The position numbers and the translations under genes were made by a program. From Pseudomonas sp. 7SR1 (lineage in GTDB: Bacteria; Pseudomonadota; Gammaproteobacteria; Pseudomonadales; Pseudomonadaceae), in NCBI RefSeq assembly GCF_900156465.1, contig NZ_LT707064.1, forward strand, positions 5,533,001-5,597,000: a stretch of DNA of 64,000 nucleotides, read 5' to 3'. Positions within the stretch are counted from its first letter, which is position 1; each line of letters starts with the position of its first letter. Under the pieces are notes generated by a model. That model did not search any database, was not told the origin of the DNA, and was given only the letters and a program-made list of their open reading frames with translations. Below, piece after piece: positions 853 to 36,122 of this stretch.

Positions 853-1539
853 TCAGCGCACCGGTAGCTTGAGGATCCGGGCAGTGGTCATGACATCGCC
901 GAAAGTGTCCTCGACTTCGGCCAGCGCGGCTTTGTGCAACGCATCCTTGTCGATGGAGTCACCGTTGGTTCGGGTAATGGCACGGGTGGCCGATGCGTCG
1001 GACGCGACCAGCACGTTGTAACCCAGTGGCGCGGCGTCACGGGCGGCGCCGGCGACACAGGCGTGGGTCATGAGGCCGGAGATGATCAGGTTTTCGATAC
1101 CGGCGCGCTTCAAGCGCTTGTCCAGGTCGGTACTGCCAAAGACGCTGACAGTGGTTTTCTGCAATACCCCATCCCTGGCCCTGGGCTGCATCTGCGGATG
1201 GAACTTCACGCCTTCACCCCCCTGGGCAAACACTGCCGATCCTGGGGGTGCAATGTGTTGAATGTGATAGACCGGCATTTTGTGCTCGTCGGCGAATGCA
1301 ATCAGCTCACGGGCCTTGTCCAGCGCCGCTACGCCATCGGGAATCGGCATCTTGCCAGTGAAGTATTCGTTCTGGAAATCGATGATCAGTAACGCGGTCT
1401 TACCGGCGGGCAGTTGGCTCACCGCCTGGGCACCCGACATGGCGCGGATGGTTGGATTGCTTTCAGCCAATGCCCCGGCACTGGCGATAATGCCGGAAAA
1501 TGCACAGGCGGTGAGAAAACGGCGAGTAAAACGTTGCAT
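853..1539 (-). CDS. Isochorismatase-family cysteine hydrolase, exported
   Basis: The 228-residue protein begins MQRFTRRFLTACAFSGIIAS, a signal peptide ending near AGALA, so the mature enzyme should be periplasmic. The hydrolase fold shows the family triad: Asp in ALLIIDFQNEY, Lys in the VLQKTTVSVF strand, and the nucleophile Cys in SGLMTHACV. Known members hydrolyse isochorismate, nicotinamide or other small amides; the substrate here cannot be read from sequence. The start at 1539 is chosen because AAGGAA lies 7 bases upstream and because it gives the signal peptide; a longer reading frame to 1638 has no such features. It is followed by the LysR gene. Confidence 0.85.
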   Translation of the reverse strand: MQRFTRRFLTACAFSGIIASAGALAESNPTIRAMSGAQAVSQLPAGKTALLIIDFQNEYFTGKMPIPDGVAALDKARELIAFADEHKMPVYHIQHIAPPGSAVFAQGGEGVKFHPQMQPRARDGVLQKTTVSVFGSTDLDKRLKRAGIENLIISGLMTHACVAGAARDAAPLGYNVLVASDASATRAITRTNGDSIDKDALHKAALAEVEDTFGDVMTTARILKLPVR

Positions 1540-1662
1540 GGAGAATTCCTTCTGGACAATGGACGAAGGAATGCTAGGGGGACCGGCGGAAATGGAACAC
1601 AGCGCGGCCAAGACAGGACATGTTTGATTCTTGCACAAATGACGCCGCCCAATGGAATTTCG

Positions 1663-2517
1663 TCAAGTGGCTGGCCTGAGGACCTGGGCATCCACGACGA
1701 TCCGCTTGCCGACCTTTTCCCCCACCTCCACCGCCTGTCCATCCCGCTGCTTGCCCTGGCGCGCCTGCCCCACCAACCGGGGGATCAAATCGCCCTCCGG
1801 CAGATGCTGCCAGAACCGCCCGGGCATATGCTGGCGCAACGCCTGGGGATTGAGCCTCGCCGGGTTGAAAATGTGCCGGTAATAGGTGCGCCACAGTTCC
1901 GCGCCGGGGTCTTGGGCATGCTGCGCCCACTGCCGCCACTGTTCAGGGCAATGACGCTGGTAGTCCAGCTTGTGACCATCGTAGCGGATGCCGTCGCGGG
2001 GCGTTGCGATCAACCAGCGTTGGCGTCCCAGTCGCTCGGCAAAATGACCGCTCGCGCTTTCAAGGATGTCATGGGCCGGCTCGTGGAAGGACACCAGGTC
2101 CAGTTGCAACTGACCGGCGACTTCCTGTGGCAACGGTATGAAGCGCACGAAGGCGTGCAGATGATGGGCCTCGCGGCTGACCTGCTTGATCCGTCGCTGC
2201 AGCTCGCTTCCCAGGCGGTCACCGGCGAGCATCGCGGTGCGGTCGCCATGAGCCACCCGCCAGAGCACTTCATACAGCAGGTTCCAGCGTTGCTCGCCCC
2301 GATAACGACTGGCCTGTTCGAGCAATGGCAACAAAGTGGCCGGTACCCGTGTGCGAAACGGCCCCGGGTCTCGTGGCAATGGCGCCGGCACGGCGAGCAG
2401 GTCAACCATGGGCCCCTGGGCCCAGGTTACCTCGACCGGGTCGATACCGTGACCCAGCAGCGTTCGCGCCTGTTCCCGCCAGAGGGAGAAACTGTCGTCA
2501 CAATCCAGCGCAATCAT
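1663..2517 (-). CDS. DUF4130 / TIGR03915-type protein, partner of radical SAM DNA-repair protein
   Basis: This 284-residue protein starting MIALDCDDSF resembles the TIGR03915 'probable DNA metabolism protein' family (DUF4130). Family members are encoded next to a TIGR03916 radical SAM protein, and in some bacteria are fused to a UdgX-like uracil-DNA glycosylase. I recall no established biochemical activity. Charged stretches such as RRIKQVSREAHHLHAF and an aromatic, His-rich middle are visible, but no catalytic motif can be named. The ATG at 2517 overlaps the upstream stop as ATGA, so translation is probably coupled; an in-frame GTG at 2523 is the alternative. The operon carries a LexA-like box in front of its first gene. 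Confidence 0.8.
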   Translation of the reverse strand: MIALDCDDSFSLWREQARTLLGHGIDPVEVTWAQGPMVDLLAVPAPLPRDPGPFRTRVPATLLPLLEQASRYRGEQRWNLLYEVLWRVAHGDRTAMLAGDRLGSELQRRIKQVSREAHHLHAFVRFIPLPQEVAGQLQLDLVSFHEPAHDILESASGHFAERLGRQRWLIATPRDGIRYDGHKLDYQRHCPEQWRQWAQHAQDPGAELWRTYYRHIFNPARLNPQALRQHMPGRFWQHLPEGDLIPRLVGQARQGKQRDGQAVEVGEKVGKRIVVDAQVLRPAT

Positions 2518-3734
2518 CCCCACAACCCCATCTGCACGGGTCGCTGGGGATCACGCAGACGAGCCCTCAACAAGCCGCTGCGCACCTGCGCATCGGGCGG
2601 CCGATAATCACTGGTGACGATGAACGGTCGCGCCTTCTCCAGTACACAACGCAACTGCACCAGGTCGTCATAACGAACGCGACGCTCCCTGCGCAGCGCA
2701 ACCAGACGCTGCACACTACGCAGGCCAATACCGGGAATTCGCGCCAGCAGGGCCGGCTCGGCACGGTTGAGATCCACCGGGAAGACCTCACGATTGGCCA
2801 ACGCCCAGGCCAGCTTGGGGTCGATATCCAAGTCCAGGTTGCCGGTCTGCCGCAACAACTCGCCGGCCTTGTAGCCATAGCCGCGCATGAGGAAATCAGC
2901 CTGGTAGAGACGATGCTCGCGCAACAGCGGAGGCGCCGCCAGGGGTACGCTGGCAGGGCTGTCAGGAATCGGGCTGAACGCCGAATAGTAGACCCGCCGC
3001 AGGCCATACCCCTGATAGAGCGACTCGGCATTGCTGAGGATGGCATGGTCATCGGTGGCATCGGCCCCGACGATCACTTGGGTACTCTGCCCGGCGGGAG
3101 CGAACCGGGGCGCCCGCGCTTCGCCAGCCACCGCTTGCTGTCCCTCCTGGATGGTGCCCATGGCCTGGCGGATCGTCGACAACTGCTTCTCTGGCGCCAG
3201 GCGCCTGAGACTCACCTCGGTGGACAGTTCGATGTTCACGCTCAGCCGGTCGGCCAGCCGCCCGGCCTCTTCGATCAACAGAGGATCGGCATCGGGAATG
3301 GTCTTGAGATGGATATACCCGCGAAACTGATGCTCCTCGCGCAGCAGCCGCGCCACCCGGATCAACTGCTCCATGGTGTAGTCGGCCGAACGAATGATAC
3401 CGGAGCTCAGGAACAGGCCACTGATGCAGTTGCGACGATAGAAATCCAGCGTCAGGCGCACCACCTCCTCCGGCGTGAAGCGCGCCCGCGGTACATTGCT
3501 GGAACGACGGTTGACGCAGTATTGGCAGTCATACAGGCAGAAATTGGTCAGCAGCACCTTGAGCAACGAGACGCAACGCCCATCAGGCGTGTAGCTGTGA
3601 CAGATCCCCATACCGTCCGTGGCCCCTAGCCCATCGCGGCCTCGCGAACTGCGCTTGGGGGCTCCGCTACTGGCGCAGGAGGCGTCGTACTTGGCGGCAT
3701 CGGCAAGAATGCCGAGCTTGGCGATCAGTTGCAT
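2514..3734 (-). CDS. Putative DNA modification/repair radical SAM protein (TIGR03916-like)
   Basis: This 406-residue protein carries a radical SAM cluster motif, CX3CX2C (Cys66, Cys70, Cys73 in FCLYDCQYC), for a 4Fe-4S cluster and S-adenosylmethionine cleavage. Further cysteines precede it (Cys20, Cys45, Cys54). The C-terminal part has a helix-hairpin-helix signature (ARIPGIGLRSVQRLVALRR), which in other proteins binds DNA. Together these fit the TIGR03916 family, annotated as putative DNA modification/repair with unknown reaction. The start at 3734 is chosen because it begins the conserved MQLIAKLGILADAAKYD; the upstream frame has no homology-like character and lies over the LexA-like box at 3750-3769. 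The DUF4130 gene follows with an ATGA overlap. Confidence 0.87.
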   Translation of the reverse strand: MQLIAKLGILADAAKYDASCASSGAPKRSSRGRDGLGATDGMGICHSYTPDGRCVSLLKVLLTNFCLYDCQYCVNRRSSNVPRARFTPEEVVRLTLDFYRRNCISGLFLSSGIIRSADYTMEQLIRVARLLREEHQFRGYIHLKTIPDADPLLIEEAGRLADRLSVNIELSTEVSLRRLAPEKQLSTIRQAMGTIQEGQQAVAGEARAPRFAPAGQSTQVIVGADATDDHAILSNAESLYQGYGLRRVYYSAFSPIPDSPASVPLAAPPLLREHRLYQADFLMRGYGYKAGELLRQTGNLDLDIDPKLAWALANREVFPVDLNRAEPALLARIPGIGLRSVQRLVALRRERRVRYDDLVQLRCVLEKARPFIVTSDYRPPDAQVRSGLLRARLRDPQRPVQMGLWG

Positions 3735-3749
3735 GGAAGCGATTCTCGA

Positions 3750-3769
3750 TACTGGACATAAATACAGTA
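3750..3769 (-). promoter_or_regulatory. Putative LexA (SOS) box before the radical SAM operon
   Basis: TACTGGACATAAATACAGTA has the gammaproteobacterial LexA form CTG-N10-CAG with the flanking TA/TA symmetry. It differs little from the enterobacterial consensus. It ends 15 bases before the ATG of the radical SAM gene, where a repressor would cover the promoter or start of transcription. LexA itself is encoded in this window with its own boxes at 34985-35019. Confidence 0.75.
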
Positions 3770-3824
3770 TTTTGAGTCGCACGGCGATGCAAGCCCCGTC
3801 GGTCCATTCATCGCGCCAGAGGCT

Positions 3825-3854
3825 TTGGGGCCAGGCCGCGAGATGGGCTATAAT
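3825..3854 (+). promoter_or_regulatory. Predicted sigma70 promoter of yhfG-fic
   Basis: A perfect -10 hexamer TATAAT lies at 3849-3854, with a partial -35 (TTGGGG, 3825-3830) 18 bases upstream. The yhfG start codon follows 31 bases after the -10. Confidence 0.55.
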
Positions 3855-3885
3855 CGGCTCACCCACGCAATCCGAGGTCCAGCCC

Positions 3886-4056
3886 ATGGGCACTATCAGC
3901 CTTGAAGCCAAAAAGGCCTATGCAGCCAGAACCCGTAGATCCAACTATGCGGCCAGCCTGCGCCTGGAAGGCTTCAAAGTGGACTTCGCCGACGGCAACC
4001 TCAAGATGCCGACCCGCGAAGAAATCCTCAAGACCTTCACCAAGCCCAGAACCTGA
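3886..4056 (+). CDS. yhfG: YhfG-family antitoxin of Fic
   Basis: The 56-residue protein MGTISLEAKKAYAARTRRSN... is basic at its N-terminus and ends TREEILKTFTKPRT. Small YhfG proteins precede fic in enterobacteria and pseudomonads and act as the inhibitory partner of class I Fic AMP-transferases; the P. fluorescens version is known as AntF. A GAGG Shine-Dalgarno sits 9 bases before the ATG at 3886, and a TATAAT promoter is further upstream. The stop codon overlaps the fic start by one base (TGATG), as expected for coupled toxin-antitoxin expression. The assignment rests on size, position and sequence resemblance. Confidence 0.87.
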   Translation: MGTISLEAKKAYAARTRRSNYAASLRLEGFKVDFADGNLKMPTREEILKTFTKPRT

Positions 4057-4655
4057 TGCTGGACAAATATGGCGTCGGTGAAGACGCCTACTGCTATCCC
4101 GGCTCCACTGTCCTTCGAAACAAACTCGACATTCGCGACGACGCCACCCTGAGCGAAGCCGAGCAGCAACTCACGGCCATCGCGGCGGACAGCGTCGAAT
4201 TCAACCCTCCTCCCTACGACCTCGTTTACCTCCAGAACATCCATCGACGACTGTTCTCGGACTTGTATGAATGGGCCGGAGAATTGCGAACCGTCGGGAT
4301 GGCCAAGCAAGATACGCGCTTCTGCCAACCACAGTTCATGGAAAAGGAAGCCGGCAAGATCTTCAGCCACATGGCCGCCGCCCACTGGTTCGAAGGCCTG
4401 CCCCGGGCAGACCTGATCATTGCCGTGGCCGACGCCTATTCCGATATCAACGTCGTACATCCTTTTCGCGAAGGCAACGGACGAGCCCAGCGCATCCTCT
4501 TCGAACACCTCATCATGAACGCCGGATTCGAGATCAGCTGGTGGGGGATCGAGAAGGAAGAATGGATCGTTGCGAACATCTCGGCCTACAACTGCGTGCC
4601 GGGCCCGATGCAGCAGGTATTCGAGAAGTGTATCGGGCCGGCCATCCAGGCCTGA
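4056..4655 (+). CDS. fic: Fic-domain AMP-transferase (toxin of YhfG-Fic pair)
   Basis: The 199-residue protein has the complete Fic motif HPFREGNGRAQR (residues 135-146). It contains the catalytic His, the phosphate-anchoring GNGR and the acidic Glu (Asp in many relatives) that binds Mg2+. Fic enzymes transfer AMP from ATP to hydroxyl groups of target proteins; the related P. fluorescens enzyme is reported to AMPylate DNA gyrase subunit B. No inhibitory (S/T)xxxE(G/N) helix is evident at either end, so inhibition should come from the separate YhfG protein (class I). Length matches E. coli Fic (200). It is translated from an ATG overlapping the yhfG stop. Confidence 0.93.
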   Translation: MLDKYGVGEDAYCYPGSTVLRNKLDIRDDATLSEAEQQLTAIAADSVEFNPPPYDLVYLQNIHRRLFSDLYEWAGELRTVGMAKQDTRFCQPQFMEKEAGKIFSHMAAAHWFEGLPRADLIIAVADAYSDINVVHPFREGNGRAQRILFEHLIMNAGFEISWWGIEKEEWIVANISAYNCVPGPMQQVFEKCIGPAIQA

Positions 4656-34967: not shown

Positions 34968-34995
34968 TTGCCAAGCGGCCGCCACTGTATATAAT
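34968..34995 (+). promoter_or_regulatory. lexA sigma70 promoter
   Basis: TTGCCA (34968-34973), a 16-base spacer and a perfect TATAAT (34990-34995) precede lexA. The -10 lies inside the first LexA box, so LexA binding would block RNA polymerase. Confidence 0.75.
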
Positions 34996-35019
34996 CCCAG
35001 TCACTGTATAAAAAGACAG
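34985..35019. promoter_or_regulatory. Two LexA (SOS) boxes of lexA-sulA
   Basis: CTGTATATAATCCCAG (34985-35000) and CTGTATAAAAAGACAG (35004-35019) both fit CTG-N10-CAG. They lie 19 bp apart centre to centre, directly upstream of the lexA start, as in other gammaproteobacterial autoregulated lexA genes. Confidence 0.92.
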
Positions 35020-35029
35020 AGCGATCAAT

Positions 35030-35638
35030 ATGCTAAAGCTGACGCCACGCCAAGCAGAGATTCTGGCCTTCATCAAACGCTGCCTAGAAGACAACGGCTA
35101 CCCGCCGACCCGCGCGGAAATCGCTCAGGAACTGGGTTTCAAGTCGCCCAACGCGGCGGAAGAACATCTCAAGGCCCTCGCTCGCAAAGGCGCGATCGAA
35201 ATGACGCCCGGCGCGTCCCGCGGGATCCGCATCCCCGGCTTCGAAGCCAAGGCCGACGAAACCACCCTGCCGATCATTGGCCGCGTGGCGGCAGGCGCTC
35301 CGATCCTTGCTGAACAACACGTCGAAGAATCCTGCAACATCAACCCTTCTTTCTTCCATCCCCGGGCCGATTATCTTCTTCGCGTCCACGGCATGAGCAT
35401 GAAGGACATCGGCATTTTCGATGGCGACCTGCTGGCGGTGCACACCACTCGCGAAGCCCGCAATGGCCAGATCGTCGTGGCGCGTATCGGTGACGAAGTG
35501 ACCGTCAAGCGCTTCAAGCGCGATGGCAGCAAGGTCTGGCTGATCGCCGAAAACCCCGAATTCGCCCCCATCGAAGTGAACCTGAAAGAACAGGATCTCG
35601 TCATCGAAGGCTTGAGCGTCGGCGTCATTCGCCGCTAA
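35030..35638 (+). CDS. lexA: SOS repressor LexA
   Basis: The 202-residue repressor has an N-terminal winged helix ([41 protein letters not shown]) and a C-terminal S24 self-cleavage domain. The Ala88-Gly89 cleavage bond lies in GRVAAGAP, the catalytic Ser123 in [14 protein letters not shown] and Lys160 in DEVTVKRFK. RecA-stimulated self-cleavage releases SOS genes. The operon includes sulA 10 bases downstream. Two LexA boxes upstream show autoregulation. Confidence 0.97.
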
Positions 35639-35648
35639 AGGAGGCTTT

Positions 35649-36122
35649 ATGCATTTCCCTCACACACCACAGCACACGCAACTGCCGCTGTTCGAGGCAT
35701 TCATGGCCCAGCCTTTGGCTCCAGTCCTGAAAGATGTGATCGAATCACCCTGGGGCGTCGAGCCCGAGGCCTTCAGTGAATTGTCGTTACGTGGTGCGGC
35801 CGGGAACTGCCTGAACCTGCTGGCCCCGATCCTGCGGGAGTTGAGCCAGGACCAGGACGCTCGCTGGTTGACGCTGATCGCGCCTCCGGCGAGCGTTACC
35901 CAAGCCTGGCTGCGAGATGCCGGCCTCAATCGCGAGCGTATCCTGCTGCTGCAGCCCCGAGGCACTCAGAGCGCCCTACAGTTGACGTGCGAAGCACTGC
36001 GCCTGGGCCGTAGCCATACGGTGGTCAGCTGGCTCAACCCGCTATCCCCTGCCGCGCGGCAACAGTTGATCAGCGCCGCTCGCGTCGGAGACGCACAAAG
36101 CCTGAATATTCGTTTGGGCTAG
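35649..36122 (+). CDS. sulA: SOS cell-division inhibitor SulA
   Basis: The 157-residue protein resembles SulA, which binds FtsZ and halts septation during the SOS response. The central part (FSELSLRGAAGNCLNLLAPI, RWLTLIAPP, ERILLLQPRGTQSALQLTCEALR, HTVVSWLNPL) matches the RecA-like SulA fold without nucleotide-binding motifs. It starts at ATG 35649 with AAAGGAGG just upstream and lies 10 bases after lexA, so it is induced with it. The weakly structured inverted repeat GGCTTCTC/GAGAAGCC at 36134-36156 follows. Confidence 0.9.
   Translation: MHFPHTPQHTQLPLFEAFMAQPLAPVLKDVIESPWGVEPEAFSELSLRGAAGNCLNLLAPILRELSQDQDARWLTLIAPPASVTQAWLRDAGLNRERILLLQPRGTQSALQLTCEALRLGRSHTVVSWLNPLSPAARQQLISAARVGDAQSLNIRLG

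Follow-up and report, generated by a model that had tools for sequence, protein, structure and literature searches.

The window analysed here, 64,000 nucleotides of Pseudomonas sp. 7SR1 (contig NZ_LT707064.1, positions 5,533,001 to 5,597,000), raises the question of whether a short palindrome places a radical SAM operon under the control of the SOS response and, if so, what the products of that operon do to DNA. The palindrome, TACTGGACATAAATACAGTA, lies at 3750-3769, in a source genome that consists of one contig of 6.09 Mb, and reads letter for letter as a preliminary description of the window had given it. The window coordinates also confirmed the spacing claimed there, with a gap of 15 bases (3749-3735) between the palindrome and the ATG of a TIGR03916-like radical SAM gene, and the claimed ATGA overlap with a DUF4130 gene, in which the radical-SAM stop codon TGA (2516-2514) shares bases with the DUF4130 start codon ATG (2517-2515). 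Both proteins score above the curated cut-offs of their families, as follows:

3750 to 3769, minus strand: predicted LexA(1)-type SOS operator, 5'-TACTGTATTTATGTCCAGTA-3' on the minus strand, identified by pattern, matrix and conservation
2514 to 3734, minus strand: TIGR03916 radical SAM protein, 406 aa (TIGR03916, 535 bits; cut-off 343.5)
1663 to 2517, minus strand: TIGR03915/DUF4130 protein, 284 aa, without a UDG domain (TIGR03915, 190.9 bits; cut-off 112.25; PF13566 DUF4130)

Among the best 80 of 592 matches, the closest named relatives of the radical-SAM protein come from P. ceruminis (91% identity) and P. putida (90%), and in the radical-SAM tree the window protein pairs with the 90%-identical P. 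putida strain.

The palindrome has a CTG-N10-CAG core, in which one CTGTAT half is perfect and the other half, CCAG, is like that of the box at 34985 in front of lexA. The lexA locus lies within the same window:

34985 to 35000, plus strand: first LexA-like box of lexA, CTGTATATAATCCCAG, found with the matrix; it shares its half-site type with the box at 3750-3769
35004 to 35019, plus strand: second LexA-like box of lexA, CTGTATAAAAAGACAG, found with the matrix
35030 to 35638, plus strand: lexA, encoding LexA1 (TIGR00498, 256.8 bits)
35649 to 36122: sulA

The first lexA box is thus built alike to the operon box, CTGTATTTATGTCCAG. With up to one mismatch the pattern TACTG-N10-CAGTA has three occurrences in the window, where 0.25 would be expected, and exact matches are found at five places in the genome. 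Allowing one mismatch across the genome gave 66 places compared with 220 for a reversed-pattern control, so the bare pattern is not enriched and the argument for a LexA site rests on other evidence. We built a LexA matrix from five SOS-type sites outside the window (L053, L054, L056, L059 and L060), chosen out of ten listed places, one of which was lexA's in the window and nine outside it, for having a neighbour that either resembled an SOS gene or turned up more than once; these neighbours are yebG, topB, a PA0069-family radical SAM gene and two DUF1654 genes. The places left out were L055, which has a levansucrase-like neighbour by eye, L057, L058 and L061. Using this matrix the box at 3750-3769 ranks first in the window with 18.9 bits, followed by lexA's own two boxes with 17.4 and 12.1 bits. 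Within 6 Mb of first-order Markov DNA no site reached 18.9 bits, and 12.1 bits was reached 40 times.

Several of the sites elsewhere in the genome are observations in their own right. A LexA-type box (L056, G000:C1:5381708) lies 71 bases upstream of the ORF for DNA topoisomerase III (topB), and near-perfect boxes are found at the starts of two DUF1654 genes (L059 and L060, G000:C1:3634911 and 3668002), although the L059 box precedes its gene only when a start internal to the listed ORF is assumed. One perfect CTGTAT-N4-ATACAG (L057, G000:C1:5715542) lies close to where a small ORF without a family match begins. Another (L055, G000:C1:2342533) stands before the levansucrase-like gene, either as an odd SOS target or as a false positive, and a palindrome by itself is consequently no proof of SOS control. 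The remaining case is the PA0069-family radical SAM gene (NF033668), whose ORF start has a perfect palindrome of LexA type 17 bases upstream (L054, G000:C1:1448332-1448347). On the strength of this box a second radical SAM gene is likely to be under SOS control in the source genome. The two proteins are both radical SAM enzymes, but that of the PA0069 family has no sequence similarity to the TIGR03916 protein (best BLASTP E 3.3), and the literature searched contained no paper joining PA0069 with LexA.

The preliminary description had proposed aligning the regions upstream of TIGR03916 operons across Pseudomonas. The gene is present in 78 of 99 sampled genomes of the genus and missing from the other 21, and in a sister genus none of the 25 species has it. 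Our upstream set of 78 orthologues comprised 30 loci from the genus scan, 47 that were fetched and the window itself. In 77 of the 78, CTG-N10-CAG lies 60 to 20 bases ahead of the profile start, represented by 30 distinct sequences, where this counting interval had been fixed after a first look at the orthologues. Mononucleotide shuffles of the same regions gave a mean of 0.77 out of 78, and elsewhere in the 78 regions, each of 400 bases, the pattern occurs only 11 times, in 10 loci. The sole exception, L109, carries CTGTATGAAAAACCAC, one base off CTG-N10-CAG. The site in the window stands above chance because it combines the top matrix score with a position at which all but one of the 78 orthologous promoters have the box.

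Two putative promoter elements were placed around the palindrome:

3787 to 3792, minus strand: putative -35 element TTGCAT, separated by 17 bp from the putative -10 element; of the 76 distinct promoter segments from orthologues, 62 have TTG there
3764 to 3769, minus strand: putative -10 element TACTGT, within the operator; TA directly precedes CTG in each of the 76 distinct segments

The -35 offset was located by scanning offsets from -45 to -6, which placed TTG 25 bases upstream of CTG and gives the arrangement TTGnnn, 17 bases, TACTGT. From this spacing the operator would overlie the putative -10 element and the start site. The -10 hexamer TACTGT is a poor match, and a generic promoter scan called no promoter in 1400-4100.

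Since the palindrome sits between divergent genes, it is possible to read it as serving the other side, a small ORF and a Fic gene (PRK10347 equivalog) at 3887-4655, or as the site of another regulator, or as chance, as the genome-wide count of the bare pattern would allow. A candidate for such a regulator exists, as the genome has a second LexA gene (L256, G000:C1:5370336-5370938) with GTACAAATGTAC just upstream and imuA/imuB-like ORFs (by eye) following, which makes it a LexA2-type locus. We regard all of these readings as highly improbable. The box keeps its fixed distance from the radical-SAM gene, and the Fic motif was not found in the 3.6 kb upstream in any of the 11 other named Pseudomonas loci among the best 80 of 592 matches, which suggests that the Fic neighbour may be locally acquired. 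The LexA2 promoter has GTAC-N4-GTAC and no CTG-N10-CAG, and the box at 3750-3769 closely matches lexA1's own boxes. The earlier reading of a LexA box in front of a radical SAM/DUF4130 operon is supported by conservation, by the overlap with the putative -10 element and by the resemblance to the lexA boxes, and on this sequence evidence 3750-3769 is very probably a LexA operator.

SOS-type sites are also found at this gene beyond Pseudomonas. We scanned 150 bases upstream in a named-locus set consisting of the best 80 of 592 confirmed matches, which is biased to close relatives. In this set CTG-N10-CAG was present at 11 of 11 Pseudomonas loci, both loci from other gammaproteobacteria and 11 of 11 betaproteobacterial loci, ten of the last within the 150 bases and one (L210) spanning the match start. 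All three Verrucomicrobia loci among these best 80 of 592 matches lie within one mismatch of TGTTC-N4-GAACA, one of them exactly, a motif which we take to be of the LexA type. No motif was found upstream of the two Xanthomonadaceae loci in the same best 80 of 592. The 51 alphaproteobacterial loci of this best-80 set have CTG-N10-CAG in only two cases, and 47 of them carry GTTC-N7-GTTC in either direction, with four missing the strict motif; GTTC-N7-GTTC is given as an alphaproteobacterial LexA motif in a passage of PMC8565304. In a separate draw across the phylum, TIGR03916 was matched in 46 of 249 genomes, 39 of them above the cut-off. Thirty of these loci were examined and 28 have a motif within 250 bases (25 of the GTTC type and 3 of the CTG type), while L110 and L126 have neither there. 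The named, phylum and genus sets overlap, so these counts are not additive. Judged by such predicted sites, the motif switches with lineage while some SOS-type site persists at the radical-SAM gene. That the switch is kept in nearly all Pseudomonas examined, and has counterparts at distant loci, would place the radical-SAM/DUF4130 pair very probably in the DNA-damage response.

Membership of that response leaves room for more than one kind of chemistry. The pair could make or edit a modified base, as a DNA modification system without lesion repair for which SOS merely sets the timing. The family title, 'putative DNA modification/repair radical SAM protein', accommodates this, and in a figure legend of PMC3765255 DUF4130 is a predicted mutagenesis-related enzyme found in association with SplB-like photolyases and UDGs, and the phrase 'which might modify thymines' can be read as referring to any of these. 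We nevertheless consider modification unlikely. SOS-type sites in several lineages suit damage better than a standing modification, the PADLOC defence library gave no match for the pair, and the gene is rare in phage records (10 of 50,697), where one that was inspected looks chromosomal. The record labelled Acinetobacter phage (L222, CAKLQH020000003.1 86371-99549) has glyQ, glyS and aidB together with a radical-SAM/DUF4130 pair, and looks like a bacterial chromosome mislabelled as phage.

A second alternative comes from earlier work on a related operon. The Pseudomonas operon resembles the COG1573-COG4277 operon in having two genes, an SOS-type site upstream and a protein of the same radical-SAM family, where we take COG4277 to be TIGR03916 and that operon to be of the radical-SAM/DUF4130 type. 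It differs in that the Pseudomonas partner is DUF4130 alone, with no UDG, and its site belongs to the LexA1 type of Pseudomonas. Excerpts of PMC8565304 predict SOS-type sites at the COG1573-COG4277 'uracil-DNA glycosylase' operon in Bacteroidetes, cite work on Verrucomicrobia and on Caulobacter (Alphaproteobacteria) to the same effect, and read the operon as serving base excision repair by way of UDG. A section of PMC3765255 likewise connects DUF4130, within SOS neighbourhoods, to UDGs and to radical SAM proteins of the SplB-like kind. As SOS control is already in print for what is taken to be the same type of operon, the novelty is smaller than the preliminary description had suggested, even though its proposal of LexA control stands. 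The class of regulation is known, and what is added here is a near-fixed operator in Pseudomonas, a variant free of UdgX and a tree of UdgX gain and loss. The literature searched contained no report of a radical-SAM/DUF4130 operon under SOS control in Pseudomonas; coverage was incomplete and such a report may be in print.

Following this published interpretation, the operon of the window would be an SOS-regulated UDG system that removes, through uracil base-excision repair, the wrong nucleotides left by error-prone polymerases. Support comes from the partner proteins. Among the best 80 of 592 matches, 73 partners had sufficient length for a scan, of which 72 belong to TIGR03915 and 53 have UdgX fused to DUF4130. 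The UdgX part of the fused partners matches a solved UdgX at 3.3e-68, and the GEQPG, RxH and HP[SA] motifs occur jointly in 50 partners from the same best 80 of 592. The window protein differs, as family profile searches found no UDG domain in it and the source genome has no match to TIGR03914, the UdgX family, at E <= 0.001. The named Pseudomonas loci among the best 80 of 592 agree with this, with ten resolved partners consisting of DUF4130 alone and the eleventh interrupted by a contig end. Across 57 relatives two congeners have UdgX directly behind the radical-SAM gene, one of them below the cut-off, and five non-congeners gave weak UdgX matches, all below the cut-off. A third congener (G054, L036) has GEQPG behind its radical SAM gene, and by these matches UdgX is not foreign to Pseudomonas. 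A further point against uracil repair is that UdgX, according to a passage of PMC10359453, bonds covalently to the abasic site that it makes instead of turning over.

The tree of 77 radical SAM proteins bears on the same point. The UdgX label requires at least nine changes on this tree, seven of which are forced by supported branches, and across the loci compared the constant parts are the radical SAM protein, DUF4130 and, in most loci, a predicted SOS-type site. As UdgX is gained and lost while the radical-SAM/DUF4130 pair persists, the SOS-controlled core is probably the pair and not uracil excision. We therefore find it doubtful that the operon serves uracil repair.

The sequence of the radical-SAM protein offers some indication of how the pair might work. 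Two features were located:

3516 to 3539, minus strand: radical SAM cluster motif C66-x3-C70-x2-C73 (CLYDCQYC), from the alignment
2655 to 2777, minus strand: helix-hairpin-helix-like C-terminal stretch, residues 320-360 (PF12836, 23.9 bits, E 4.5e-5, below the cut-off of 27)

Three further cysteines upstream of the cluster motif, C20, C45 and C54, are equally invariant, which gives six invariant cysteines in 31 of 31 aligned proteins. Spore photoproduct lyase, or SplB, is comparable as a radical SAM enzyme of DNA repair, and SplB-like photolyases are placed beside DUF4130 in part of PMC3765255. The TIGR03916 protein is set apart from it by the three extra invariant cysteines and by the helix-hairpin-helix-like tail, and no spore photoproduct lyase was found among its 22 sequence matches of solved structure at E <= 1. 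For the partner, profile-profile comparison gave no support for kinship with the DHH-superfamily phosphoesterases (RecJ, Cdc45, NrnA, PAP phosphatase; probability 0.1%), and the DUF4130 alignments contain no D-x-D or D-H-H string among their invariant or nearly invariant columns.

The best explanation overall, and one that we hold to be likely, is a LexA1 operator on an operon whose products process DNA lesions together. LexA1 bound at 3750-3769 would cover the -10 element and the expected transcription start and keep the operon silent, and upon DNA damage RecA-stimulated cleavage of LexA would switch it on. Both proteins would be produced together through translational coupling, and the radical-SAM and DUF4130 products would then most probably act as one DNA-lesion-processing enzyme, in which the radical-SAM component would carry the helix-hairpin-helix-like tail together with a canonical [4Fe-4S] cluster and possibly another one. 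In many other bacteria the DUF4130-fused UdgX would trap uracil-derived abasic sites, and the Pseudomonas pair would work without it. We lean towards the view that the two proteins are a lesion-processing pair. A more far-reaching picture, which we consider less likely than not, is an SOS-induced pair that uses two iron-sulfur clusters to carry out radical reactions on DNA. DUF4130 would grip the lesion, or the end of it, by means of a degenerate DHH-like fold, and UdgX would be a dispensable first module that delivers covalently trapped abasic sites.

If this more far-reaching picture is correct, the pair would be a second type of radical-SAM DNA repair, alongside spore photoproduct lyase. 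With the predicted operator the vague annotation 'putative DNA modification/repair' becomes a testable claim, that of a radical enzyme made upon DNA damage across lineages with differing LexA motifs. A naturally UdgX-free pair in readily cultured Pseudomonas also makes it possible to study the core chemistry of the pair separately from uracil excision, the purpose that earlier work assumed.
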